Shown here: in pieces, positions 1,643 through 40,367 of the stretch
Numbering within the stretch: position 1 is the stretch's first letter
How the letters are laid out: each line of letters opens with the position of its first letter
Origin: Candidatus Jorgensenbacteria bacterium GW2011_GWB1_50_10
Lineage (GTDB): Bacteria > Patescibacteriota > Minisyncoccia > UBA6257 > GWB1-50-10
Direction: 5' to 3'
Assembly (NCBI GenBank): GCA_001004105.1
Contig: LCQK01000005.1
Coordinates: forward strand, 1 to 44,440
Length of the DNA: 44,440 nucleotides
Translations under genes and position numbers: made by a program
Notes under the pieces: generated by a model
What the model was told of the DNA's origin: nothing
Database searches by the model: none
What the model saw: only the letters and a program-made list of their open reading frames with translations

Positions 1643-4021
1643 TTGCGGCTGGCATACCGAAAACTCATCTTGTACAGCCTACTGGTCTTAACCATCATCC
1701 TAATCCCAGCCACTCCGCAACCTCAAACCCAAACCACGAACACACCAACAAGCGGTTCCAGTAACCTGCCGAAGATTCCAGAGCACCAGAACTTCTGGGA
1801 CTTACTGCCAACAATCAAAACATGGCTGGAGAATCTGGGTAAGGATACTGCCCGTTGGTATCCACAATTAGGGTACATGCAACCCGTTTACGCGGCGACA
1901 AATTTCACGAATGGGTTTGAAGCCAACAACTTTGATTTGTGGACTGATGGTGGAACAACAACATGGCAAATAGGTACTAGCTCAGTACCGGGAGCACCAT
2001 GGGCACCACATGCTGGAACATATATGGCTTATTGTGATGGAACTCATGATGGGGATTTAATATCAGACAACATTAATTTGTCAAGTGTTACAACATCATT
2101 TGTTGTTGATTTTTGGTATATGGATGATGATATTGACCCAGCAGATACTTCGGATTTATACTATTACGATGGTGCTTCGTATGATTTAATAGCTGACCTC
2201 AACTCTGCGACAGAGGATACATGGCTCCATTATCAACAGACAGTTACAGATTCTCAATATTTCAAATCCAATTTCCGAATTGACTTTAAAGAATCTGCTG
2301 GTAGTGGAGAAGTTTTATTTGTAGACGATGTTCTAGTAACATCAAGCGCAGGTAATCCTGTCAGTTTAAGCGACTCAGCGAAATTGACCGATACGTTGCC
2401 GTACAAGTTTGTTGGCAAACGATTATCTGAAGCCAATAATCTCATAGACCAATTATTCAAAGGACAACCGAGAACGAACGCTGACATGTTAACTGTAACT
2501 GATTCAATTCTCAAGAATGCGGGAAAACCATTCACCGATGTCATGAACTTGCTTGATTCAATTCAAGTAGGCAACATGAAACCGCTCAGCGAATTCATAA
2601 ACCTGATTGATGCTTTAACCGCTCAGAAAGGTGGTGGTGGACAGAGCAACCCAGTAAGTCTCGCAGACGCGTTGAACCTAGTCGATTCCTTACTGAAGGG
2701 AAGCGAAACAACAATAACAGAGTTCCTAACTCTAACAGATAATGTTCAACTTAGCAACCTGAAACCGTTAACGGCCACCGTAACATTCATCGACGTTCTA
2801 GGACACGCCGTTCTTAAACCATTACCAGAAACACTAACCCTCTCAGACGTTCTATCGGTCAAATTCGTCGGACAACGAGGATTATCCGACACGCTAACAC
2901 TGATTGACTTGTTAGGTCGTGACATCGGCAAACTCCTATCGGGCACGGTTAATGTTGCTGATGCGTTGAACTTCAAATTTGTGGGCACACGCACTCTATC
3001 TGAAATTCTATCCCTGTCAGACTCGTTGGTGCTTGCGACGGGGAAGTTTCCAAGCGATGTACTGAATCTTGTTGACTCACTCAGTTCACGTTTCAGTGGA
3101 ACCCGCAGTCTCTCAGACATCATTACACTCGTCGATACTTTGACTACGCAATTCACTGGCACACGCCAGCTCTCAGACATACTCAACCTAACCCACGCAG
3201 TAAGTATGGGGAAGTTGCTCACCGCGAATATTGCAGACACATTAGCCCTAACGGAATTTTTATCGTTCAGGTTCGTGGGAGCCAGACCCCTAACCGACAT
3301 AGTTAGTCTGCAAGATTTACTTTCACGAGGACATCAAAACCCGCGTTCAATCACCGACGCCCTTAATTTGCTTGATTCAATTCTGAAGAACTCGGGAACC
3401 GCTTTCACTTTTACTGAAACGTTAAATTTGAATGATGCGGTATTCTACCAGTTCGCTGGCTCACGCCCACTCAACGACGCTCTAAACATAATCGGTCTAC
3501 TGACCGCGCAAAGCAGCGCCTCGCAAGCGTACACGCGCTCACTCACAGACATTCAAACTTTGGTTAATTTGCTCTCTGCGATATTCACCACTACCTCTAC
3601 TGATGACCCCAGTGGCATGATACTTACTAGCACTGGCTCAACAAGCTCAACAACAACCGTAACAAAAACCACTACCACGCCCTTCTTCGGTAACCTCACA
3701 ACCCTCATAAACCCGCCCTCATACGGCGTGTGGCCTATTGCACTAATCCTCAGCCTCGGAATATTCGCCATAACCATGCAATACGGCATTCCAGAACTAT
3801 ACAACAAGAAAAGATGGCTCATCACCCTCACACCACTAATCCTACTGTTCGGCTTGATGACCTACGTCAGATTATTCAGCGGATTAAGCGACGACGCGAA
3901 GTGGGAGTCAACGATTGCGTGGGGCATACTCTTAGCACCCTTAGTCGTTTCCAGCCTAATCACAATTTACTTGAACGTGTCAAAAGTCAGCCTTGAAGAG
4001 TTGCGTCAGGAAAATGTTTAA
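1643..4021 (+). CDS. Giant repeat surface protein, paralog A (signal peptide, IPEHQ.FWD motif, LSDxLNLxDSL repeats, C-terminal multi-TM)
   Basis: 792 aa; TTG start; many ~22-aa repeats such as 'GTRSLSDIITLVDTLTTQFTGTRQLSDILNL'; C-terminal TMs. Confidence 0.85.
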   Translation: MRLAYRKLILYSLLVLTIILIPATPQPQTQTTNTPTSGSSNLPKIPEHQNFWDLLPTIKTWLENLGKDTARWYPQLGYMQPVYAATNFTNGFEANNFDLWTDGGTTTWQIGTSSVPGAPWAPHAGTYMAYCDGTHDGDLISDNINLSSVTTSFVVDFWYMDDDIDPADTSDLYYYDGASYDLIADLNSATEDTWLHYQQTVTDSQYFKSNFRIDFKESAGSGEVLFVDDVLVTSSAGNPVSLSDSAKLTDTLPYKFVGKRLSEANNLIDQLFKGQPRTNADMLTVTDSILKNAGKPFTDVMNLLDSIQVGNMKPLSEFINLIDALTAQKGGGGQSNPVSLADALNLVDSLLKGSETTITEFLTLTDNVQLSNLKPLTATVTFIDVLGHAVLKPLPETLTLSDVLSVKFVGQRGLSDTLTLIDLLGRDIGKLLSGTVNVADALNFKFVGTRTLSEILSLSDSLVLATGKFPSDVLNLVDSLSSRFSGTRSLSDIITLVDTLTTQFTGTRQLSDILNLTHAVSMGKLLTANIADTLALTEFLSFRFVGARPLTDIVSLQDLLSRGHQNPRSITDALNLLDSILKNSGTAFTFTETLNLNDAVFYQFAGSRPLNDALNIIGLLTAQSSASQAYTRSLTDIQTLVNLLSAIFTTTSTDDPSGMILTSTGSTSSTTTVTKTTTTPFFGNLTTLINPPSYGVWPIALILSLGIFAITMQYGIPELYNKKRWLITLTPLILLFGLMTYVRLFSGLSDDAKWESTIAWGILLAPLVVSSLITIYLNVSKVSLEELRQENV

Positions 4022-13247: not shown

Positions 13248-13295
13248 TCACTCCACTATTTCGTGTTGTTGAATAAGCCTTAAATCCCTACGTTA

Positions 13296-13307
13296 TCATC
13301 ATGATGA
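13296..13307. promoter_or_regulatory. TCRTCATGAYGA palindrome copy (perfect)
   Basis: tcatcatgatga within 14-bp perfect palindrome; downstream of cttaaatcc; before LamG gene. Confidence 0.85.
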
Positions 13308-13330
13308 TGTTTGTTGGAAAGGGTTAAACT

Positions 13331-14715: not shown

Positions 14716-17700
14716 TTGCGACGCCACCTAAAATATTCGCTCTACTCGCTCTTAATCGTAGCCTTCATGCTCATACCATTAACACCGAACCTTAATCAGC
14801 AGCAGAACACGCAGCCAATATCGCCAAACCAATTCACTATTCCAGCGATTCCTGAGCACCAACCCTTCTGGGATTTCTGGTTAACAATCCGTGACTGGTT
14901 AATCCGCAATCTACAGTCGGGGCATCAACTTCAAGGCTTCTTCGGCTCCTTCACAAGTAACATTCCCAAATGGATACACCCCTACGAACTGTTGCCAACC
15001 GTTCAAGCTGCGAACCTCGGCGGCTCAACTCTTGGGAGCCTAACGTACGTTGACCCATCATTTTCCTTAGTGGGGGGCAAGTACGATTACGCGACAACCT
15101 TCGGCCACTACACGTTATCGTTGGCGAAGTCAGAGAACGCTTACATCGTATCATGGCAGTCGCCCGACGCGGTTGGTAAGAAGGATGTTGCCAGCACCGC
15201 TTTCGTATTACTAGAGAACGGTAATTTCCTTCCAGATTCATGGAGTACACAGGTTACATTCACCGCGCAAACCCCCTACGCTCTAAGCGACCATTTTGAT
15301 GGTTCGTGGGAAATCAGGCAGAAGTCAACTGGACTTCTGATTGCAACCTCGCATCTAATTGTTCAATTTCAGCGCACTGCCCTACCGAAGATTAGCGCCA
15401 ACATAGTAAAAGAGTGGTACTACACTAACCCGCTGTGTACTTCGTCGCTTGATGATTGTCCGACTGAAACCTACTGGAACCAAGTAGGCTTAGGTTCGCT
15501 GCAATGGGTGTGGCAGATTGCTCCTAACACTGGTTGCGATAGCGTTAACGGACTAAACATAGTAAACCTCACCGCATCAAGCGACGGCATGAAGTTGTCC
15601 GAGTCTAGCAAACTTGACTTTAGTTCGTGCGAGTGGTCAGCTTCATGGCAGGAGTACGGCTCACTACCTGTTGAGATACAAGTTAACGGTGACAAGAAAG
15701 GCAAGGGGGTGTTTTCGAAAGGAGCAATCGAAGTCAAGTTCCCGGTCAACATGACCACGATTGACCCCACGTTCGGAATCACAAGCACAGGCTCAACGAG
15801 CTACCCACGCGCGAAAGCTATGACGGCAAATGGTGATGCTCAACTTGATACGGCACAGTCAAAGTTCGGTGGTTCAAGCAGCCTCTATGATGGTAATGGT
15901 GATTATTGGAGTACGGCTGATAGCGCTGATTGGGCTTTTGGAACTGGGGCTTTCACAATCTCCCTATGGGCGCGTTTCAATGTGTTGCCCGCCGCAAATG
16001 AGTACACTTGGTTTCTATCGCAGTCAGTTGACACTACGCATTTCTGGTATTTCGCAGTAAAGAATAACGCTGGAACCTACGAGTTCAGGGTGCGCAGTAA
16101 CGATGGGGCTGGTGCTGGCTTTGATACGGCGATTGCCACGTCCTTCTCCACGGCAACTTGGTATCACATCGAACTTGACCGTAGCGGAAATACTCTCTAC
16201 ATCTTCAAAGATGGGACTAGTGCGGGTACTTCCACGGAAACAGATGCTAACCCTGATGTCGCAGGGTCTCTCGTGATTGGTGGCGACGCAGTTTGGGCTG
16301 TGTACCTGAATGGTTGGGAGGATGATGTTCAAATCATGAAAGGAACTGCTCTGCACACGTCTAATTTCACAGCCCCCACCGTTCCTTACTCTCGTACTTC
16401 CGGTATGGGAATTGACTTGCACTTTGACGGAGCTGACGCAGCAACTACCACCGTCGATGATGTGCTTACAGGGCAGACGCTTTACACGAAGGCTACTCTC
16501 AGCGGTTCCGCGACGGTTACGAGCGTTAGCTTCTGCTCCCTCACCACCTCTGGAAGCGTGGTTCTTGGAATATGGACCGATAGTAGCGGACCGTCAGTTC
16601 TAAAATGGAATAGTTCAACCTCGGGTACATCCGTGAACGCGTCAGCATGTTCAGGCTCCTCAAATTGGACTACGATTAATATTAGTAGCGGTAGCCCTAC
16701 CGCGTTGAATCTTGGCACAGCAACATATTGGCTTGGATTTCAATGGACATTTGTTTCAAACACTTACTATGCTGGTCCCGCATACGCGTCAGGTGGCGCG
16801 AACACGGGCGCGTACACTTGGGATAATTTCGGCACTTTGCAAAGCACCGTATCGAGTCCTACTCTGTCCACGGAGAATTACAGTGAATACGTCACATACA
16901 CGGCGGGCGCATCAGGCACCCCATCGGAAACCGGAAACGTTTCAGATGCACTGGCGCGTTTACGCAACGTTCCTAAATCGTTCTCTGATGCATTAAACCT
17001 AATCGATTCAATAATTAAGAGCACTAGTAAACCGCTGACTGAAACCCTGAACTTGACCGATGTTCTCAGCTTCAAGTTTGTGGGTGCAAGAAGTTTCACT
17101 GACGTTCTCAACATTACGGAGTTACTCGCGCGTGGAATCGGTAAGCCGCTCTCGGAAATTCTCAATCTCACTGATGTGTTATCGTTCAGCTTTGTGGGCT
17201 CGCGTGGACTTTCAGACACACTCAATCTAGTAGACTTGTTAGCTCACAGAACCGGCAAATCCCCAGCAGAAACGTTGAATCTCGCCGACATTCTATCGTT
17301 CAAGTTCATTGGCACACGCACCCTTGCTGACATGCTGAACCTTACGGATGTGCTATCCCACACCGTCGGTAAGACGCTATTCGATTTCCTAAATCTTACA
17401 GAATCATTATCGAGCACTTTCATTGGTTCACGGGCGAACACGGAAACCTTAACCCTCACAGACTTAATCGCGAGAGGTGCCGGAAAAACCCTTACAGACC
17501 AACTTATTCTAGCCGATACTTTTCTCCGACAATTCTTTGGCACACGCACACTCGCAGAAATCCTTAACCTCACTGAGTCCGTAAACACCGGCAAAGTGCT
17601 CACTACAAATCTCACAGACATGGTAACAATAACAGAATCCTTATCGAACCTCTACATGTTCAACCGGCCACTCGCAGATAACTTAATCTTAACTGAGCTG

Positions 17701-18573
17701 CTTAACTTCTCAGGACGCTTCAGCAAATCCTTCACCGACGCGTTAGGCATAACGGATGCACTATCGAAAGGCGGAATCAAATATCCCACAGATATTTTGA
17801 ATCTCACAGATTCATTAACGCGTTCATACTTCGGACTTCGCAGCAACACGGAAACGTTAACACTAACGGAAACACTTAACCGTCAACAATCAATTTCATT
17901 CACGCTCAGCGACCTGCTCACAATCACCGATAATTTAACAGTAATCTTTCACGCGGGCGGAGGTGGAGCCGTAATCAACGTATCAATCGCGGACGTGTTG
18001 AACCTTTCAGAGTTGCTCAGCAAACTCCTAGTTCCAGCGGGCGGCACTGGCAGTGGTTACGTTGCTAGTCCAACTCCGTTGATTCAACTCCAACTCGCCG
18101 CTATCCCACGCATCGCGACGCTCGACTACTTAACCGCGTACCCAACTAGCTTCCAACTGTTCCTCTTCAAACCAACAAGCGTCGTCCAAATGCGTTTCAC
18201 AGCCCTAAACGGAAACCGAACCCAAGACACGCTGAATGTCTGGTACACCATCAACCGCAACAATCAGCCCTACCTCACCACGCCAAAGGAGCAGCATATC
18301 ATAGACCCGAACACGCCAACAACCTTCAGCAGTTGGCTTCTACTTGAACAAGCCGGAACATACCAGATTATAGGCTACGCGGAAGGTACAAACCAAGTAA
18401 CTCTACCGCCGCAAACCGTCACGATAACTACGCTCGATTTATTTTTAGCCACTATCCTACTTTGGAGTCCAATCGTAGCATTAATCGCAATCGTCAGCTA
18501 CATGAGCATCAACACTGTCCGAAACAGACGCGACGAAGCAAGAAGGAAAGAAAACGAACCACCAGAAGAGTGA
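14716..18573 (+). CDS. Giant repeat surface protein, paralog B (1285 aa; LamG domain, LTDxLNLTDxL repeats, C-terminal TM)
   Basis: Signal; 'IPAIPEHQPFWDFWLTIRDWL'; LamG region ~aa 375-560; >15 repeats; C-terminal TM plus charged tail. Confidence 0.88.
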   Translation: MRRHLKYSLYSLLIVAFMLIPLTPNLNQQQNTQPISPNQFTIPAIPEHQPFWDFWLTIRDWLIRNLQSGHQLQGFFGSFTSNIPKWIHPYELLPTVQAANLGGSTLGSLTYVDPSFSLVGGKYDYATTFGHYTLSLAKSENAYIVSWQSPDAVGKKDVASTAFVLLENGNFLPDSWSTQVTFTAQTPYALSDHFDGSWEIRQKSTGLLIATSHLIVQFQRTALPKISANIVKEWYYTNPLCTSSLDDCPTETYWNQVGLGSLQWVWQIAPNTGCDSVNGLNIVNLTASSDGMKLSESSKLDFSSCEWSASWQEYGSLPVEIQVNGDKKGKGVFSKGAIEVKFPVNMTTIDPTFGITSTGSTSYPRAKAMTANGDAQLDTAQSKFGGSSSLYDGNGDYWSTADSADWAFGTGAFTISLWARFNVLPAANEYTWFLSQSVDTTHFWYFAVKNNAGTYEFRVRSNDGAGAGFDTAIATSFSTATWYHIELDRSGNTLYIFKDGTSAGTSTETDANPDVAGSLVIGGDAVWAVYLNGWEDDVQIMKGTALHTSNFTAPTVPYSRTSGMGIDLHFDGADAATTTVDDVLTGQTLYTKATLSGSATVTSVSFCSLTTSGSVVLGIWTDSSGPSVLKWNSSTSGTSVNASACSGSSNWTTINISSGSPTALNLGTATYWLGFQWTFVSNTYYAGPAYASGGANTGAYTWDNFGTLQSTVSSPTLSTENYSEYVTYTAGASGTPSETGNVSDALARLRNVPKSFSDALNLIDSIIKSTSKPLTETLNLTDVLSFKFVGARSFTDVLNITELLARGIGKPLSEILNLTDVLSFSFVGSRGLSDTLNLVDLLAHRTGKSPAETLNLADILSFKFIGTRTLADMLNLTDVLSHTVGKTLFDFLNLTESLSSTFIGSRANTETLTLTDLIARGAGKTLTDQLILADTFLRQFFGTRTLAEILNLTESVNTGKVLTTNLTDMVTITESLSNLYMFNRPLADNLILTELLNFSGRFSKSFTDALGITDALSKGGIKYPTDILNLTDSLTRSYFGLRSNTETLTLTETLNRQQSISFTLSDLLTITDNLTVIFHAGGGGAVINVSIADVLNLSELLSKLLVPAGGTGSGYVASPTPLIQLQLAAIPRIATLDYLTAYPTSFQLFLFKPTSVVQMRFTALNGNRTQDTLNVWYTINRNNQPYLTTPKEQHIIDPNTPTTFSSWLLLEQAGTYQIIGYAEGTNQVTLPPQTVTITTLDLFLATILLWSPIVALIAIVSYMSINTVRNRRDEARRKENEPPEE

Positions 18574-26372: not shown

Positions 26373-26480
26373 TAGAGCAGGGCGAGCGCAAACCCCCGAA
26401 CTGATTACACCATACTTATTTCCGTCTAAAATCGCAAAAACGAAATGTGCTTTGTGGCATAAATCTTATTAAGGAAAACA

Positions 26481-26492
26481 TCATCATGATGA
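26481..26492. promoter_or_regulatory. TCRTCATGAYGA palindrome copy (perfect)
   Basis: Within 16-bp perfect palindrome catcatcatgatgatg (26479-26494); after aatcttattaagg. Confidence 0.85.
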
Positions 26493-26515
26493 TGACATTC
26501 ATGTGGGTGTTTTGA

Positions 26516-27327: not shown

Positions 27328-28809
27328 ATGAGTTTCGCCCGCAGCCGGTTAGCCCTATATGGGCTGCTCGTAGCCGTTCTCATACTGGTTCCAGCTTCTC
27401 CAATGGATGTTGCCGACCAATCGCCACAAGTTCTATCGAGTGATGTTTTCACTCTACCGAGGTTGCCTGAGCGGTTAGAGTGGCACAGCGTATGGTACTA
27501 TGTTTCAAAATGGTTAACGCGGCTACGCGTTGAATCTACGATTGGGTCATTAACTAGCAGTGGTTTTCTACCACAATCACCAATCCAAGAAGCCCACGCA
27601 ACAATTACACGAGTTCAGGGAAATACTCGCGGAGTTTATGCGTCTGGTTCTAGCTTCACGGTCACGCAAAGCTCAACTCCAACGAGTGGAAACTTGAACG
27701 TTCTAACCATTACCGCCCGTGTCGGCTCAGGAGTGCCTGCAACAGTTAAAAGTATTTCGCAGACTGGCGTTGTTTGGAGCAAAGTTACTAACGCTGGCAG
27801 TGGTGCAATCGATGTTGAGATTTGGGCGGGGGTTGTTGGTTCCGGTGCTAGCGCCAGCATCACTGTGACTCTGACGGGGATAGTGGGAACTGCGGTAGCC
27901 AATGTTTGTGAGTATTCAGGATTAACTACGTCAAGTTACCTTGATGTGACTGCTTCAACCTTCGGGTCTTCCACGGCATCTGACACAGGTACAACGGCTA
28001 CAACGACGCAAGCCAATGAACTTTGGGTCGGTTCTACTGGAGATGTAACTGCAACCCAGTCTACTCCAACCAATAGTTTTACATTGCTTGATGGTACAGC
28101 AACAGGTAGTACGTCGAATGCTTTCTTGGAGAAGATTGTTTCATCCACTGGAACCGCTAACTCAGGCACCACGTTGAGCAGTTCGAACGCTTGGGTTGGG
28201 AGCGCTAGGTTGGTTCGGGTTCAGGGTACTGTTGGTGGAGTTTTCGCGAGTGGAAGTTCATTCGCGGTGACTCAGGCCGCGATTCCCACGAACGGAAACC
28301 TGAATATCATGACAGTTACCACTCGTAAGGGGTCGGGTACGGCTGAGACGGTTAGTAGCATTTCACAGACAAGTGTGACTTGGAGTAAAGTCACAAATCT
28401 TGTTAACAACGTACAAGACGTTGAGATTTGGGCGGGGGTTGTTGGTTCCGGTGCTAGCGCCAGCATCACTGTGACTCTGACGGCTGACCCGGGAACCGCG
28501 ATGGGCCAAGTAGCTGAATACTCCGGGTTACTAACGAGCAGTTTTACGGATGTCACCGCGTCCAATTCTGGGACATCTACGACGCCGGGTACAGGTACAA
28601 CGGCTACGACGGCGCAAGCGAATGAGTTGTGGGTTGGCTCAATTACAACACTAGTGGCGCACTCCACTCCGACTAATGGCTTCGTGTTATTGTATTATGG
28701 GGATACAGGTAGTACGTCGAATGCTTTCTTGGAGAAGATTGTTTCATCCACTGGAACCGCTAACTCAGGCACCACGTTGAGCAGTTCGAACGCTTGGGTT
28801 GGGCGTTAA
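27328..28809 (+). CDS. Giant repeat surface protein, paralog C, N-terminal part (two ~200-aa duplicated beta domains)
   Basis: Signal plus 'LPRLPERLEWHSVWYYVSKWL' as in paralogs A/B; duplicated 'VEIWAGVVGSGASASITVTLT' and 'GSTSNAFLEKIVSSTGTANSGTTLSSSNAWVG'. Confidence 0.82.
   Translation: MSFARSRLALYGLLVAVLILVPASPMDVADQSPQVLSSDVFTLPRLPERLEWHSVWYYVSKWLTRLRVESTIGSLTSSGFLPQSPIQEAHATITRVQGNTRGVYASGSSFTVTQSSTPTSGNLNVLTITARVGSGVPATVKSISQTGVVWSKVTNAGSGAIDVEIWAGVVGSGASASITVTLTGIVGTAVANVCEYSGLTTSSYLDVTASTFGSSTASDTGTTATTTQANELWVGSTGDVTATQSTPTNSFTLLDGTATGSTSNAFLEKIVSSTGTANSGTTLSSSNAWVGSARLVRVQGTVGGVFASGSSFAVTQAAIPTNGNLNIMTVTTRKGSGTAETVSSISQTSVTWSKVTNLVNNVQDVEIWAGVVGSGASASITVTLTADPGTAMGQVAEYSGLLTSSFTDVTASNSGTSTTPGTGTTATTAQANELWVGSITTLVAHSTPTNGFVLLYYGDTGSTSNAFLEKIVSSTGTANSGTTLSSSNAWVGR
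27814..27877 (+). repeat. 64-bp direct repeat, copy 1
   Basis: gttgagatttgggcgggggttgttggttccggtgctagcgccagcatcactgtgactctgacgg, identical to 28420-28483. Confidence 0.9.
28102..28200 (+). repeat. 99-bp direct repeat, copy 1
   Basis: Identical by eye to 28705-28803 (acaggtagtacgtcgaatgctttc...aacgcttgggttggg). Confidence 0.9.
28420..28483 (+). repeat. 64-bp direct repeat, copy 2
   Basis: See copy 1. Confidence 0.9.
28705..28803 (+). repeat. 99-bp direct repeat, copy 2
   Basis: See copy 1; spans the frame junction. Confidence 0.9.
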
Positions 28810-29870
28810 CAGACCAGTTGGGTTTCACGGATTTGTTTTCGGGGAAAATTACGGGTAGGCTGATTGGGGATGTGTTGAATTTAGGTGACACCGTTACTGG
28901 TCTCACTCACATTACCAATCGCGTTTTATCTGACACGCAATCAATCGCTGACGCGTTAAGCTACGCGTACACTTCCATTAATACACACAATTATCCTTCA
29001 CCGTTCATTGAGTCCCTCAAGTTAACCGACCAATTTACCCGACAATATTTCGGGGGTGTCACGCTATCTGATGCGAATAATTTTGTGGATTCATTAACCC
29101 GCTTACGGAACGTTCCAATCGTACTCAACGAGGTGCTGAGCCTAGTGGATTCTCTGTCGCGTTTCGGTCCCCCAGCAGTTCCGGGCAGCTTCACGGCGGT
29201 TAAGGATACGAGTAACCCAGTCGGAACCATAGACCTATCGTGGACTAGTGACCCGAACGCTAACCCAGCCGTTACCAGTTACACGCTTCAACGTAGCCCT
29301 GACCAATCCACATGGACCACCATCTGCACTTGCACCACTACCAGTTTCGCGGACACGGGGTTAAGTCCAGCAACAGGATACTACTACCGCATCCGAGCCT
29401 TCAACGGGCAGTATTCAGCGTACTCAGGCATCGCCAGCGCGGTCACGGATTCATATAATGTTGGAGGAGGCACCCCCACAACAACCTATACGCTCGTAGT
29501 TCTAATCAAGGATTTGCTTGGCACACCGCTTCAAGGCGCAAGTGTAAGTCAAGGCAGTACCAGTCTACTTACCGACGCGTCTGGTTTAGCGAACTTCGGT
29601 TCCTTAACTTCTGGTTCATACACGTTGAACGTTTCAGCATCAGGCTGCACAACCACAAGTCAACCCATCAGCTTAACCTCTGACCATCCCGCGTCAAACC
29701 CGTTCATAGTCAACGTGCAGTGCGGTACACAAACAACAACAGGAACTACGCCGAACCTGCCCGCAATCGAACTCTTCATCCTACCAATCTTAGGCGTAGC
29801 ATTAGCAGGTATGGCAATCGCCGTTTATGTGAACGAGCGCGGCAAGAAACGGAAACGGGAGGCACGGTAA
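28794..29870 (+). CDS. Paralog C, C-terminal part: LTD repeats, FN3 domain, carboxypeptidase-regulatory-like domain, TM
   Basis: 'ALTDQLGFTDLFSGK' repeat begins directly at the overlap; FN3 'VPGSFTAVKDTSNPVGTIDLSWTSDPNANPAVTSYTLQRS'; in -1 frame relative to 27328-28809. Confidence 0.75.
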   Translation: MGWALTDQLGFTDLFSGKITGRLIGDVLNLGDTVTGLTHITNRVLSDTQSIADALSYAYTSINTHNYPSPFIESLKLTDQFTRQYFGGVTLSDANNFVDSLTRLRNVPIVLNEVLSLVDSLSRFGPPAVPGSFTAVKDTSNPVGTIDLSWTSDPNANPAVTSYTLQRSPDQSTWTTICTCTTTSFADTGLSPATGYYYRIRAFNGQYSAYSGIASAVTDSYNVGGGTPTTTYTLVVLIKDLLGTPLQGASVSQGSTSLLTDASGLANFGSLTSGSYTLNVSASGCTTTSQPISLTSDHPASNPFIVNVQCGTQTTTGTTPNLPAIELFILPILGVALAGMAIAVYVNERGKKRKREAR

Positions 29871-30123: not shown

Positions 30124-30135
30124 TTATCATGACGA
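30124..30135. promoter_or_regulatory. TCRTCATGAYGA palindrome copy
   Basis: ttatcatgacga, 1 mismatch; upstream of 30149 gene. Confidence 0.6.
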
Positions 30136-34177: not shown

Positions 34178-35416
34178 ATGTCCGCTCGACAACGATACAT
34201 GACCATCATACTAGCTTTCTCCCTCATAATCATCGTTCTTGCAGCGACCTACGCTTCGTACTCGGCTGTACTATACGTTAGGCGCTTTCAGGATGTGCGC
34301 ACAGGTTACCGTGCTAGTACACTGTCAGAAATAAGCATCCGTTTCACCTCACAGACTTATACTTCGCAAACTTCCTCAACGAGCACAGCGACCACCTCTA
34401 GCGCGATAACTAGCTCCACTAGTACCACCACCGGAACTGGAACAATGTTAACTGCAACCTTACACCTTCCCTTGCGAGCATCGTCACCAACAGTCTGCGG
34501 AACAGTAGACTTCGAGGTGTCATCAATCCAGTCAGGAGTAAACGAGATTAAAGCCAGCCTAGTGGTCGGCGACCGTGAGGCAGCTTCATCAACGTACGGA
34601 GTATCACCAATGCAAACCTCATCAGGCCCCGTCGGACCGTTCTGCCTCATACAATCTGGAACCATCACCATGCTGCTGTCTGTTACAGATACAGTGACGC
34701 AGACCGTTCTCGCTACAGTCTCATTTGACCCATATCGCACCTTCAATGAATACTTCGCGGACTACCCTGTTGATAGCAGAAGCTACGGGTACCTCTTACT
34801 GTGGGATGCATGGTCCCCGCAAACTAAAATCCTACGTGTCCTCCTGTCCTCATTCCATCCAGTAGAGGAACGTCAAGCAGTAGTGAACTGGTTTACGGCA
34901 AGCGCGGCTTACGCTCAAGCATACGGCGGAACTTCGCTATTCAACGTCTTCATACCAAGCTTCACCGTGAACGGGCTTAACGCCACTGGAAATGAAAACG
35001 TCATATTCGGCTATGATAATGTTGGAGCCTGCGGTGAAGGTGGAGCGGCAGCATACGAAGACTACACGGGATTCATAATGAAAGCCGCCGTTTCAATAAA
35101 CGTCGGGTTCAGAACCGGCACAGGGGTTCTAGGATGTCCACCGCTTACCTCACTGCTTCAACACGAGATAGGACACATGTTCGGGCTCGGACACAACTTT
35201 CTATACAATTACCCCTCTATCCCAAACGCGAACCAGTACCGCGTTGATGTGATGGGCTACGGCGACTTGTACGCTGGCAAAGCCTGCATAACCACAATGG
35301 ACCTATACGAGCTGTCGCTGAAATTTGGGGCACTGCAAAGCGGCGAAGCGAACATTTGGGGAAGCCCACAAATGCCAACACAAATCCCCTACCAGTGCAT
35401 AGCCCAAACCCCATGA
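34178..35416 (+). CDS. Secreted metzincin-type zinc metallopeptidase with Thr/Ser stalk
   Basis: 'LLQHEIGHMFGLGHNF' (HExGHxxGxxH) and downstream 'VDVMGYGD' Met-turn. Confidence 0.88.
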   Translation: MSARQRYMTIILAFSLIIIVLAATYASYSAVLYVRRFQDVRTGYRASTLSEISIRFTSQTYTSQTSSTSTATTSSAITSSTSTTTGTGTMLTATLHLPLRASSPTVCGTVDFEVSSIQSGVNEIKASLVVGDREAASSTYGVSPMQTSSGPVGPFCLIQSGTITMLLSVTDTVTQTVLATVSFDPYRTFNEYFADYPVDSRSYGYLLLWDAWSPQTKILRVLLSSFHPVEERQAVVNWFTASAAYAQAYGGTSLFNVFIPSFTVNGLNATGNENVIFGYDNVGACGEGGAAAYEDYTGFIMKAAVSINVGFRTGTGVLGCPPLTSLLQHEIGHMFGLGHNFLYNYPSIPNANQYRVDVMGYGDLYAGKACITTMDLYELSLKFGALQSGEANIWGSPQMPTQIPYQCIAQTP

Positions 35417-35429
35417 CTCTGAATTTAAC

Positions 35430-36725
35430 TTATGCGAGCGGGAATTCCCACATGCTTCTAGCGGTGGGATGAAAGCGAGCCTTTTTATGGTGCCTAATAG
35501 CGTAGATGCGTTTGAGCGCCGATGATTCGAACCTACAAGTACAGGTTCTACCCAAACAAGAAACAAGTCGAACCCCTAGAACATACGCTTGACCTTTGCC
35601 GAAACCTCTACAATGCCGCTCTCCAACAACGAATATACGCGCATAGACTTCGAAGAAAAAATCATTATTCTAAACAGCAAAACGAGTTACCCGCCCTCAA
35701 GAAGCAATTCGCTGAATACCGCTCCGTTCATTCATTAGTTTTACAGGACACCTTGCACAGGGTTGATAAGGCATTCAAAGCGTTCTTCAAACGCGTTAAA
35801 AGAAAACGGGAAGGCGAAAACATCAAGGCAGGTTTTCCGCGTTTCAAGTCTAGGCAGCGATTCAACTCGTTCACGTACACTCAATCCGGTTTCAAGTTAC
35901 TGAAAAATGGTCATGTGTGGCTGTCGAAAATTGGTGAGCTAAGAGTTTTCAGACACCGAGAGCCAATCGGGGAAATCAAAACGGTTGCTGTGAAACGGGA
36001 CAAGGTCGGAGATTGGTTCATCACAATCGCAACTGAAACACTTGACGTTCAACCACGAAAAATAAGCACTGCACTTGGCGTTGACCTTGGGCTGAAAAAC
36101 TTCGTAACATTGACTTCGGGTGAGTCGATAGATGCACCGAAACTTTTCAGGAAAACTGAGCGCAAAGTTAGGCGAGCGCAACGAATCTTATCTCGCAGAG
36201 TGAAAGGTTCACGGAACCGTGAGAAAGCAAGAATCCGACTCGCCAAACTATATCGAAAAGTTGACAGACACCGAGACGACTTCATTCATAAACTCTCACT
36301 ATGGTTAGTAAGAAAAGCCGACTTGTTGGTGTTTGAGGATTTGAAAGTCGCGAACATGATAAGGAATCATACGGTTGCGAAGTCGATTGGTGATGCTTCT
36401 TGGAGTAAACTGGTTCAATATTCCTCTTACAAGGCTGAGAGTGCCGGTAAGAGAGTTGAGTTGGTTGACCCAAGAGGGACGACGCAGATTTGTTCCGGGT
36501 GCGGTACGGTGGTTAGGAAGTCTTTGTCTGAGAGGGTTCATCGGTGCTCAACTTGTGGGCTTCTCTTGGGCAGAGACCTAAACGCCGCCGTAAACATCTT
36601 GAACAGGTCGGTACTGAGGGGCACTCAGGAACGTACGCCTGTGGAGACTACGCCAACACCCGTAAGGGCGAGCGTGGTCAAAGAAACAGGAAGCCCACGA
36701 GCTTAAAGCTGTGGGAGGATGTCAC
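35430..36725 (+). mobile_element. IS1341-type (IS200/IS605, tnpB-only) insertion element, approximate bounds
   Basis: Left-end hairpin 35447-35468 (cccac...gtggg), tnpB, right-end hairpin 36694-36715 (cccacgagct..agctgtggg) followed by aggatgTCAC. Confidence 0.8.
35522..36706 (+). CDS. tnpB: TnpB RNA-guided endonuclease / IS605 OrfB
   Basis: RuvC motifs 'GVDLGLKNFVTL', 'LVFEDLK', 'GRDLNAAVNIL' intact; zinc ribbon 'CSGCGTVVRKSLSERVHRCSTCG'. Confidence 0.96.
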   Translation: MIRTYKYRFYPNKKQVEPLEHTLDLCRNLYNAALQQRIYAHRLRRKNHYSKQQNELPALKKQFAEYRSVHSLVLQDTLHRVDKAFKAFFKRVKRKREGENIKAGFPRFKSRQRFNSFTYTQSGFKLLKNGHVWLSKIGELRVFRHREPIGEIKTVAVKRDKVGDWFITIATETLDVQPRKISTALGVDLGLKNFVTLTSGESIDAPKLFRKTERKVRRAQRILSRRVKGSRNREKARIRLAKLYRKVDRHRDDFIHKLSLWLVRKADLLVFEDLKVANMIRNHTVAKSIGDASWSKLVQYSSYKAESAGKRVELVDPRGTTQICSGCGTVVRKSLSERVHRCSTCGLLLGRDLNAAVNILNRSVLRGTQERTPVETTPTPVRASVVKETGSPRA

Positions 36726-36771
36726 GCGAATAGTGCGAAGTAGGAGATAATCCTTATAATGCTGTTGCACA

Positions 36772-36783
36772 TCATCATGATGA
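36772..36783. promoter_or_regulatory. TCRTCATGAYGA palindrome copy (perfect)
   Basis: atcatcatgatgat; after ccttataat; before 36798 gene. Confidence 0.85.
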
Positions 36784-36797
36784 TGGTATATGAGTGA

Positions 36798-37449: not shown

Positions 37450-38532
37450 TTGTCCTATTGTAAGAAGTGCCCTTACTGCGGCATAGATTTTGTAACAAAC
37501 GATAGAAGGGCGGTTTTTTGTAGTAGGCATTGCGCTAGAATTGTTACTAATACAAAGCGCTATTCGTTAGCCAGAGAAAAACTGGAACAAAGATTATGCC
37601 GAACATGCGGTAAGAGTCTTGCTTTAACAAAAGCACTTCCGTCTAGTCAGCAGAAATATTGTGGTAATTCTTGTGCCACAACGGCCAAATGGACTCGGCC
37701 AAGCTATAGGTTTCACCAGTCTCAAGTCCATTCCACTGGGAGGCATTTTTATTGGCATGTTTGCCTTCAATGTGGGCAATCGTTCGGAAACTATATAAAA
37801 ACTTCGATTTCGAAGTTTTGTTCGGTAAAATGTAAGAACCGTCATCAAATCTCACGTCGTCTAGCGACATGTGCGTACTGTGGAAAGAATTTTGTGACAT
37901 TGAATCGTCCAAAAAGGGGTAAGTTTTGTAGTTGTAGATGTTACACTCTCAAAAGGCAAGCAATGTCAAAGGAAACATATTTGCCTAGCCCTCAACCTAA
38001 ACGTGTTTGCTTGCGGTGTGGTAAAAACTTCTTCGACTACAAGCATCCATACACATTATTGCGTAAGTTTTGTAGCGTCAAATGCGCTAGGCAATATGCC
38101 TTTGCTGATAGTGCTGCTAGACAACGTATGAGAAAGATTCGGCTACTCCACGTCTTTCCGGTAAAAGATACGAAAATTGAAGTTGCATTACAGGATGAAC
38201 TTCGTAAACGCGGTATCAAATTCGTGACACATATTTCATTAATCATTTGTCAACCAGACATATTTCTCCCAGAGGCGCGCCTTGTGGTATTCGCGGACGG
38301 AGATTATTGGCATGGATGCCCAATACATTACCCAATTCCCACTAAACGGCAACAAGAATACATCGATAGAGATAGTTATCAGGTGGCTTATTTAACTCGA
38401 CTTGGATATAGGGTGCTCCGCTTTTGGGAACACGAAATCAAAAAGGATGTTGTAGCGTGTGTGGACCGAATAGTTAATGTTGCAGCGGGTGTAACCTCTA
38501 AATTTGGCCAAAATCGTTTGATACAGATATAG
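37450..38532 (+). CDS. Endonuclease: five tandem Cys4 zinc fingers fused to Vsr/DUF559-like PD-(D/E)xK domain
   Basis: Repeated CxxCG...FCSxxC modules; C-terminal 'QPDIFLPEARLVVFADGDYWHGCPIHY...RDSYQVAYLTRLGYRVLRFWEHEI'. Confidence 0.82.
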   Translation: MSYCKKCPYCGIDFVTNDRRAVFCSRHCARIVTNTKRYSLAREKLEQRLCRTCGKSLALTKALPSSQQKYCGNSCATTAKWTRPSYRFHQSQVHSTGRHFYWHVCLQCGQSFGNYIKTSISKFCSVKCKNRHQISRRLATCAYCGKNFVTLNRPKRGKFCSCRCYTLKRQAMSKETYLPSPQPKRVCLRCGKNFFDYKHPYTLLRKFCSVKCARQYAFADSAARQRMRKIRLLHVFPVKDTKIEVALQDELRKRGIKFVTHISLIICQPDIFLPEARLVVFADGDYWHGCPIHYPIPTKRQQEYIDRDSYQVAYLTRLGYRVLRFWEHEIKKDVVACVDRIVNVAAGVTSKFGQNRLIQI

Positions 38533-40184: not shown

Positions 40185-40343
40185 CCGGAGGGTTAACAAA
40201 AATCTCAGACTGTCCGTTTGTGGTTACTCGCGGCGCAGAACGATACTGTTCACTCTGCAATAAGGCCAAGCATTGTCTGCACCTATCTCAGCACCCATTA
40301 TGCTAACGGTGTTTCCTGAGCGAAATCTTTTAAGCGCGTATCA

Positions 40344-40355
40344 CCATCATGATGA
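40344..40355. promoter_or_regulatory. TCRTCATGAYGA palindrome copy
   Basis: ccatcatgatga, 1 mismatch; after tcttttaagc; before 40368 gene. Confidence 0.7.
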
Positions 40356-40367
40356 TGATATACAGAT

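Follow-up and report, generated by a model that had tools for sequence, protein, structure and literature searches.

The gene at positions 37450..38532 (plus strand) of the window, by which we mean the whole 44,440-nucleotide stretch of DNA analysed here, probably encodes a free-standing homing-type EDxHD endonuclease with a DNA-reading array of five fingers, a reading to which we give a chance of roughly three in four. The enzyme is of a known kind; what is unusual is the DNA-binding part of the endonuclease. In the mechanism that we propose, the basic N-terminal array of five FCS/treble-clef-like fingers would recognise a long DNA target, which the metal-dependent nuclease at the C-terminus (E244, D270, H288 and D308) would cut, and the cut allele would be repaired from the gene-bearing allele, so that the gene would be copied into a new site. 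The analysis establishes the anatomy of the protein, its nuclease family, the exchange of DNA-binding modules among its relatives and the mobile positions in which some of these relatives lie, and we infer that the window copy binds zinc, recognises a specific sequence, cleaves it and homes.

The gene encodes 360 aa (its coordinates include the stop codon) and begins with TTG, which was the only NTG start before finger 1 when the upstream sequence was checked. All five fingers are encoded on the plus strand: finger 1 (CPYCG..FCSRHC, 37468..37533, residues 7-28), finger 2 (CRTCG..YCGNSC, 37597..37674, residues 50-75), finger 3 (CLQCG..FCSVKC, 37762..37833, residues 105-128), finger 4 (CAYCG..FCSCRC, 37870..37941, residues 141-164) and finger 5 (CLRCG..FCSVKC, 38008..38085, residues 187-212). 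They span 22-26 residues each with the spacing C-x2-C-x13-17-C-x3-C, all 20 finger cysteines are present, and the five modules share the pattern C-x2-C-G-x2-(hydrophobic)-x7-16-[FY]-C-x3-C (5/5). The region that holds them (residues 1-220) is strongly basic, with 44 K/R vs 7 D/E. In 20,000 shuffles of these 220 residues a strict finger motif appeared at most once per shuffle (in 21 of the shuffles) and a looser one at most three times, against five in the real sequence; a chance Cys-rich sequence was rejected, and the five tandem CxxCG...(F/Y)C...C fingers that the earlier note had read in this frame are real by this measure. The gene has a GC content of 41.6% and a GC3 of 0.363, the lowest among the 11 window genes measured, which is consistent with a recent arrival but no proof of it.

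Taken alone, the finger region matched no named Pfam family significantly, the weak candidates being FCS-type fingers, the YacG zinc finger and Rtr1, and a finger query against the PDB returned weak matches only (eL24, E 0.34). In the AlphaFold model, for which the input alignment had 34 rows, the fingers are predicted to form a beta-hairpin and then a helix, the helix starting near the second Cys pair. A structure prediction was among the checks that the earlier note had proposed, and it came out in favour of folded units, with less confidence for fingers 2-5 than for finger 1: the pLDDT is high in finger 1 (91-93, hairpin then helix), moderate in finger 2 (~65-84), finger 3 (~72-85) and finger 4 (~62-85), and weak in finger 5 (~69-73, about 70). 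Low-confidence linkers separate some of the modules, and the overall pTM of 0.41 is as expected because the domains are loosely tethered. The fingers are short modules with four Cys each and differ from the classical C2H2 kind; since the modelled hairpin and helix are consistent with a small treble clef, we call them FCS/treble-clef-like.

After the fingers follows a Vsr-like (EDxHD) nuclease domain (38158..38484, plus strand, residues ~237-345), modelled with pLDDT 94-98 and matched by Pfam Vsr/DUF559 and, in profile and fold, by 3r3p and 1cw0. The Vsr/DUF559-type nuclease proposed in the earlier note is thereby upheld, as both Pfam models score above their cut-offs over residues ~237-343 (Vsr 1.5e-10, 41.2 vs 27 bits; DUF559 1.5e-6, above the curated cut-off). 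The strict Vsr model of NCBIfam (TIGR00632) gave 61 bits, below its cut-off of 97.85. Of the solved nucleases, the one closest to a profile of the window nuclease and 13 relatives was the homing endonuclease I-Bth0305I (3r3p, catalytic domain; PDB name 'Mobile intron protein'; 4.8e-13), with Vsr (1cw0, 1.5e-12) just behind it. Foldseek placed Vsr at rank 1 (5.3e-6) and I-Bth0305I at rank 3 (1.5e-4, TM 0.82 over the 3r3p chain). The residues of interest, all on the plus strand, are E244 (38179..38181), the putative catalytic E of EDxHD; D270 (38257..38259, in QPD), a putative metal-binding D that aligns with the RPD Asp of Vsr; the segment D283-G-D-Y-W-H288 (38296..38313), which would hold the H; and D308 (38371..38373), the putative second D. 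E244, D270, D283, W287, H288 and D308 were invariant in alignments of 15, 41 and 34 sequences, and by their order and spacing E244, D270, H288 and D308 are likely to be the namesake residues of EDxHD. In the active site of Vsr, Asp 51 pairs with His 69 (PMC11879112). The protein shows two hallmarks of EDxHD homing endonucleases: a Vsr-like/PD-(D/E)xK fold with E, D, H and D in place, and separate DNA-binding modules tethered to the nuclease.

Homologs with other finger numbers, for which the earlier note had advised a search, were found with one to seven fingers (numbers from a pattern count plus reading): 1-3 in most viral contigs, 3 in mycobacteriophages, 3-5, according to which pattern was used, in a Dadabacteria MAG and in Streptomyces alboflavus, and 6-7 in further actinobacteria and on plasmids of theirs. 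In other relatives the same nuclease is joined to NUMOD3 repeats in place of the fingers, and the nuclease domains most like that of the window (54% and 51%) come without fingers. The fingers match phage families of HNH endonucleases, both those of the window protein (phrog_1271, 5.2e-18) and those of a 7-finger relative (7.2e-30). On a tree of 60 nuclease domains (119 columns, with many forks unresolved) the finger label switches at least three times across well-supported branches. The DNA-binding modules are shared with other nuclease classes and have been exchanged, fingers against NUMOD3, among the relatives. Searches of predicted viral structures returned finger-bearing and Vsr-like phage proteins among their matches, so the architecture is already present in databases; in a limited literature search no description of this finger type on this nuclease was found. 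It is conceivable, though on balance we doubt it, that the four-Cys arrays of EDxHD nucleases are a modular system in nature, with finger number (1-7) setting the length or identity of the target; in that case one could regard the family as natural zinc-finger nucleases whose recognition code can be deciphered.

Some relatives lie in the positions of mobile elements. In a Methanolobus MAG (locus L081, 3474-6074) a single frame encodes an S8 protease (subtilase) interrupted by an intein, and this intein contains two fingers, a NUMOD3 motif and a DUF559/Vsr-like nuclease. In mycobacteriophage Techage (locus L025, 3823-4778) a 956-bp insert parts a DNA methylase into two pieces and carries a 3-finger Vsr-like member that is encoded on the other strand from the methylase; phage Mangethe has the same methylase uninterrupted, with ~24 bp of its own sequence there. 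Other phages, Seagreen among them, carry the insert at 98% identity; the genome of Seagreen is ~10 kb longer. A further 65 phage records cover <80% of it (among the matches listed, a 120-bp part only). The deposited gene 59 is an antisense frame over the insert (L025; also L121). No group I or II intron was found in 15 loci of relatives, and none in the mycobacteriophage insert. On two viral contigs NUMOD3-Vsr-like members are separate genes directly before a tail gene. A phage tail gene beside a NUMOD3-Vsr-like nuclease gene in locus L004 (5381-6904) exceeds its L002 relative by ~350 aa, and the extra part appears intein-like on reading, without a match to the Pfam intein model.

Because relatives occupy an intein and a split phage gene, homing behaviour is indicated for this family, and the preference of the earlier note for a homing endonuclease over mismatch repair is supported by the I-Bth0305I match, the variable fingers and these two relatives. 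For the anti-rival role that the earlier note also offered, the findings speak neither way. The window gene itself lies between other genes; no close relative of the contig was found by which an empty site or a target could be shown for it, and Rfam and tRNA searches of the window were empty, with no intron found. As the gene interrupts nothing recognizable and these searches gave no intron, the claim of mobility is drawn from relatives that are ~21-51% identical to it. Against the homing reading we also count that the nuclease scores nearly equally for Vsr and I-Bth0305I, with Vsr first by fold E-value, and that the model gives fingers 2-5 no more than moderate confidence.

The contig that carries the window (contig C5) has a tetranucleotide profile that correlates at 0.44-0.52 with the five large contigs of the bin that were sampled, vs 0.78-0.85 among those five, and 13 of 36 gene starts have an archaeal-type TATA box upstream (1.9 expected from random positions; maximum of 7 in 500 draws). 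The profile and the TATA boxes together suggest an archaeal contig, which was probably mis-binned into a small bacterial genome. All main genes of the window (1-44440) lie on the plus strand, and no terminal repeats of the kind that mark circular elements were seen on the contig. Three other proteins of the window had no relatives in scans of viral contigs, a tblastn search of phages with the P-loop ATPase of the window gave no match, and for the radical-SAM gene the genomes of the bin's family gave weak matches only. The 16-bp palindrome CATCATCATGATGATG, exact or nearly so, occurs at 13294-13309, 26479-26494, 36770-36785 and 40342-40357 of the window, with related sites near 30127, 31486 and 41109; it stands 13-35 bp ahead of gene starts, in several cases directly behind a TATA-like box, its core has 23 matches vs 0.22 expected, and it looks like a shared operator. 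A gene for a TnpB-family RNA-guided nuclease (35522-36706) lies ~740 bp upstream of the endonuclease gene, and no TnpA was noticed nearby. The window also encodes large secreted proteins in which LTETLNLTDVLSF-like segments recur (1643-4021, 14716-18573 and 28794-29870), a secreted protein with two internal repeats, spaced ~600 bp apart and with 99-100% identity across 67 and 99 nt (27328-28809), and a probable secreted metalloprotease (34178-35416) with the motif HEIGHMFGLGH and weak Reprolysin matches.

Several other roles were weighed, and the search for methyltransferases bears on more than one of them. Pfam scans of the larger window ORFs found no methyltransferase, and in searches of the whole bin PF01555, PF00145, PF02384 and PF02086 had no match on the window's contig, the matches being confined to contigs C1 and C2; the C5 (Dcm-type) methylase family, PF00145, matched nowhere in the bin. 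The earlier note had seen no methyltransferase nearby, and this holds for the contig. It is therefore evidence against a linked restriction-modification system, and the restriction enzyme of such a system was dropped as a candidate. A linked methylase and fingers predicted not to fold were the two outcomes that the earlier note had named as counting against its reading, and neither came about. The protein might instead be a solitary nuclease of restriction or defence, with fingers that would recognise foreign (viral or plasmid) DNA for the Vsr-like domain to cut and so protect the archaeon or its element. This agrees with the restriction-like fold, with a match to the PADLOC Vsr model (6.3e-8) and with the 6-7-finger relatives on Streptomyces and Kitasatospora plasmids, which have no obvious target gene. 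We nevertheless regard it as unlikely, since a protecting methyltransferase was not found on the contig, the relatives in an intein and in a split phage gene behave as homing elements do, and PADLOC also gives a weak 'homing endonuclease' match (0.0022).

Free-standing homing endonucleases can take on interference or domesticated roles, and the window gene may be a former homing endonuclease that now serves in interference between co-infecting elements (marker exclusion) or has been domesticated, e.g., for regulation. The intact catalytic residues and full-length ORF would fit such a role, as would the all-plus-strand contig of secreted and membrane proteins, which may be an extrachromosomal element; nothing specific counts against it, but no rival element or target is known, and we consider it less likely still. 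That the protein is a true Vsr mismatch endonuclease with additional zinc fingers seems very improbable: the Pfam Vsr score above cut-off and the first rank of Vsr in Foldseek speak for it, but the score falls under the NCBIfam Vsr cut-off, the window nuclease lies outside the well-supported Vsr clade (99/95) on the nuclease tree, and the canonical Vsr homologs in related genomes are ~137-147 aa long and without fingers. The bin also has no C5 (Dcm-type) methylase, a point that weighs only weakly against a Vsr role because the bin is probably not the genome of the contig. A degenerate or inactive remnant is hardly credible, as the unusual composition (GC3 0.363) is the one point in its favour and the frame is open over its full length with all 20 finger cysteines and all catalytic residues in place.

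If the protein is a homing-type EDxHD endonuclease, as we favour, it belongs to one of the less studied groups of homing endonucleases, and finger arrays that are shared with HNH enzymes and swapped with NUMOD3 would provide a natural comparison set for how fingers read DNA and how targets change. The finger-NUMOD3 member in the intein and the member that splits the methylase offer candidate target sites at known insertion points, so the question of fingers and targets is testable.

EDxHD is one of six homing families, with a nuclease tethered to extended DNA-binding modules (PMC3943268). Its type member, I-Bth0305I of Bacillus phage 0305phi8-36 (PDB 3r3p), has the same nuclease fold as the window protein and likewise carries the nuclease C-terminal to the DNA-binding region (PMC3943268), whereas the DNA-binding part of the window protein consists of five short four-Cys fingers, its gene is not in an intron and its host looks archaeal. 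E. coli Vsr (1cw0, 1vsr) shares the fold and the active-site arrangement of the window nuclease but has no finger array and acts in mismatch repair beside Dcm. Among the closest nuclease domains found (41-51% identical) are the Vsr-like nucleases of the viral contigs L002, L003 and L004, in which NUMOD3 repeats form the DNA-binding part and fingers are absent. The CapR/DUF4379/DUF723-like + EDxHD/Vsr enzymes of phage group II introns (PMC12350094) also join an array of 3-5 modules to an EDxHD/Vsr-like C-terminus, a likeness taken from their description; their repeats are ~60 aa long and intron-borne, whereas the window has free-standing fingers of 22-26 residues. VSR-domain proteins (P559) are encoded in group I introns of the terminase genes of Bastillevirinae (PMC11878797) and VSR-like nucleases in introns of mirusviruses (PMC12768974); both place a Vsr-like nuclease in a homing context, as proposed for the window protein, but theirs are intron-encoded. 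A 7-finger relative of the window protein matches phrog_559, and the window protein did not match it at E 0.01. For a phage methylase family, three other insertions have been described: an intein, a LAGLIDADG domain and the zinc-finger-bearing HNH element of ShiLan (PMC9957025, PMC11855218). The ShiLan-type elements (PMC11855218, PMC9957025) likewise bring zinc fingers and a nuclease into a phage methylase gene, but their nuclease is HNH, not Vsr-like, and the Vsr-like methylase insert of Techage falls outside the three insertion types of PMC9957025.
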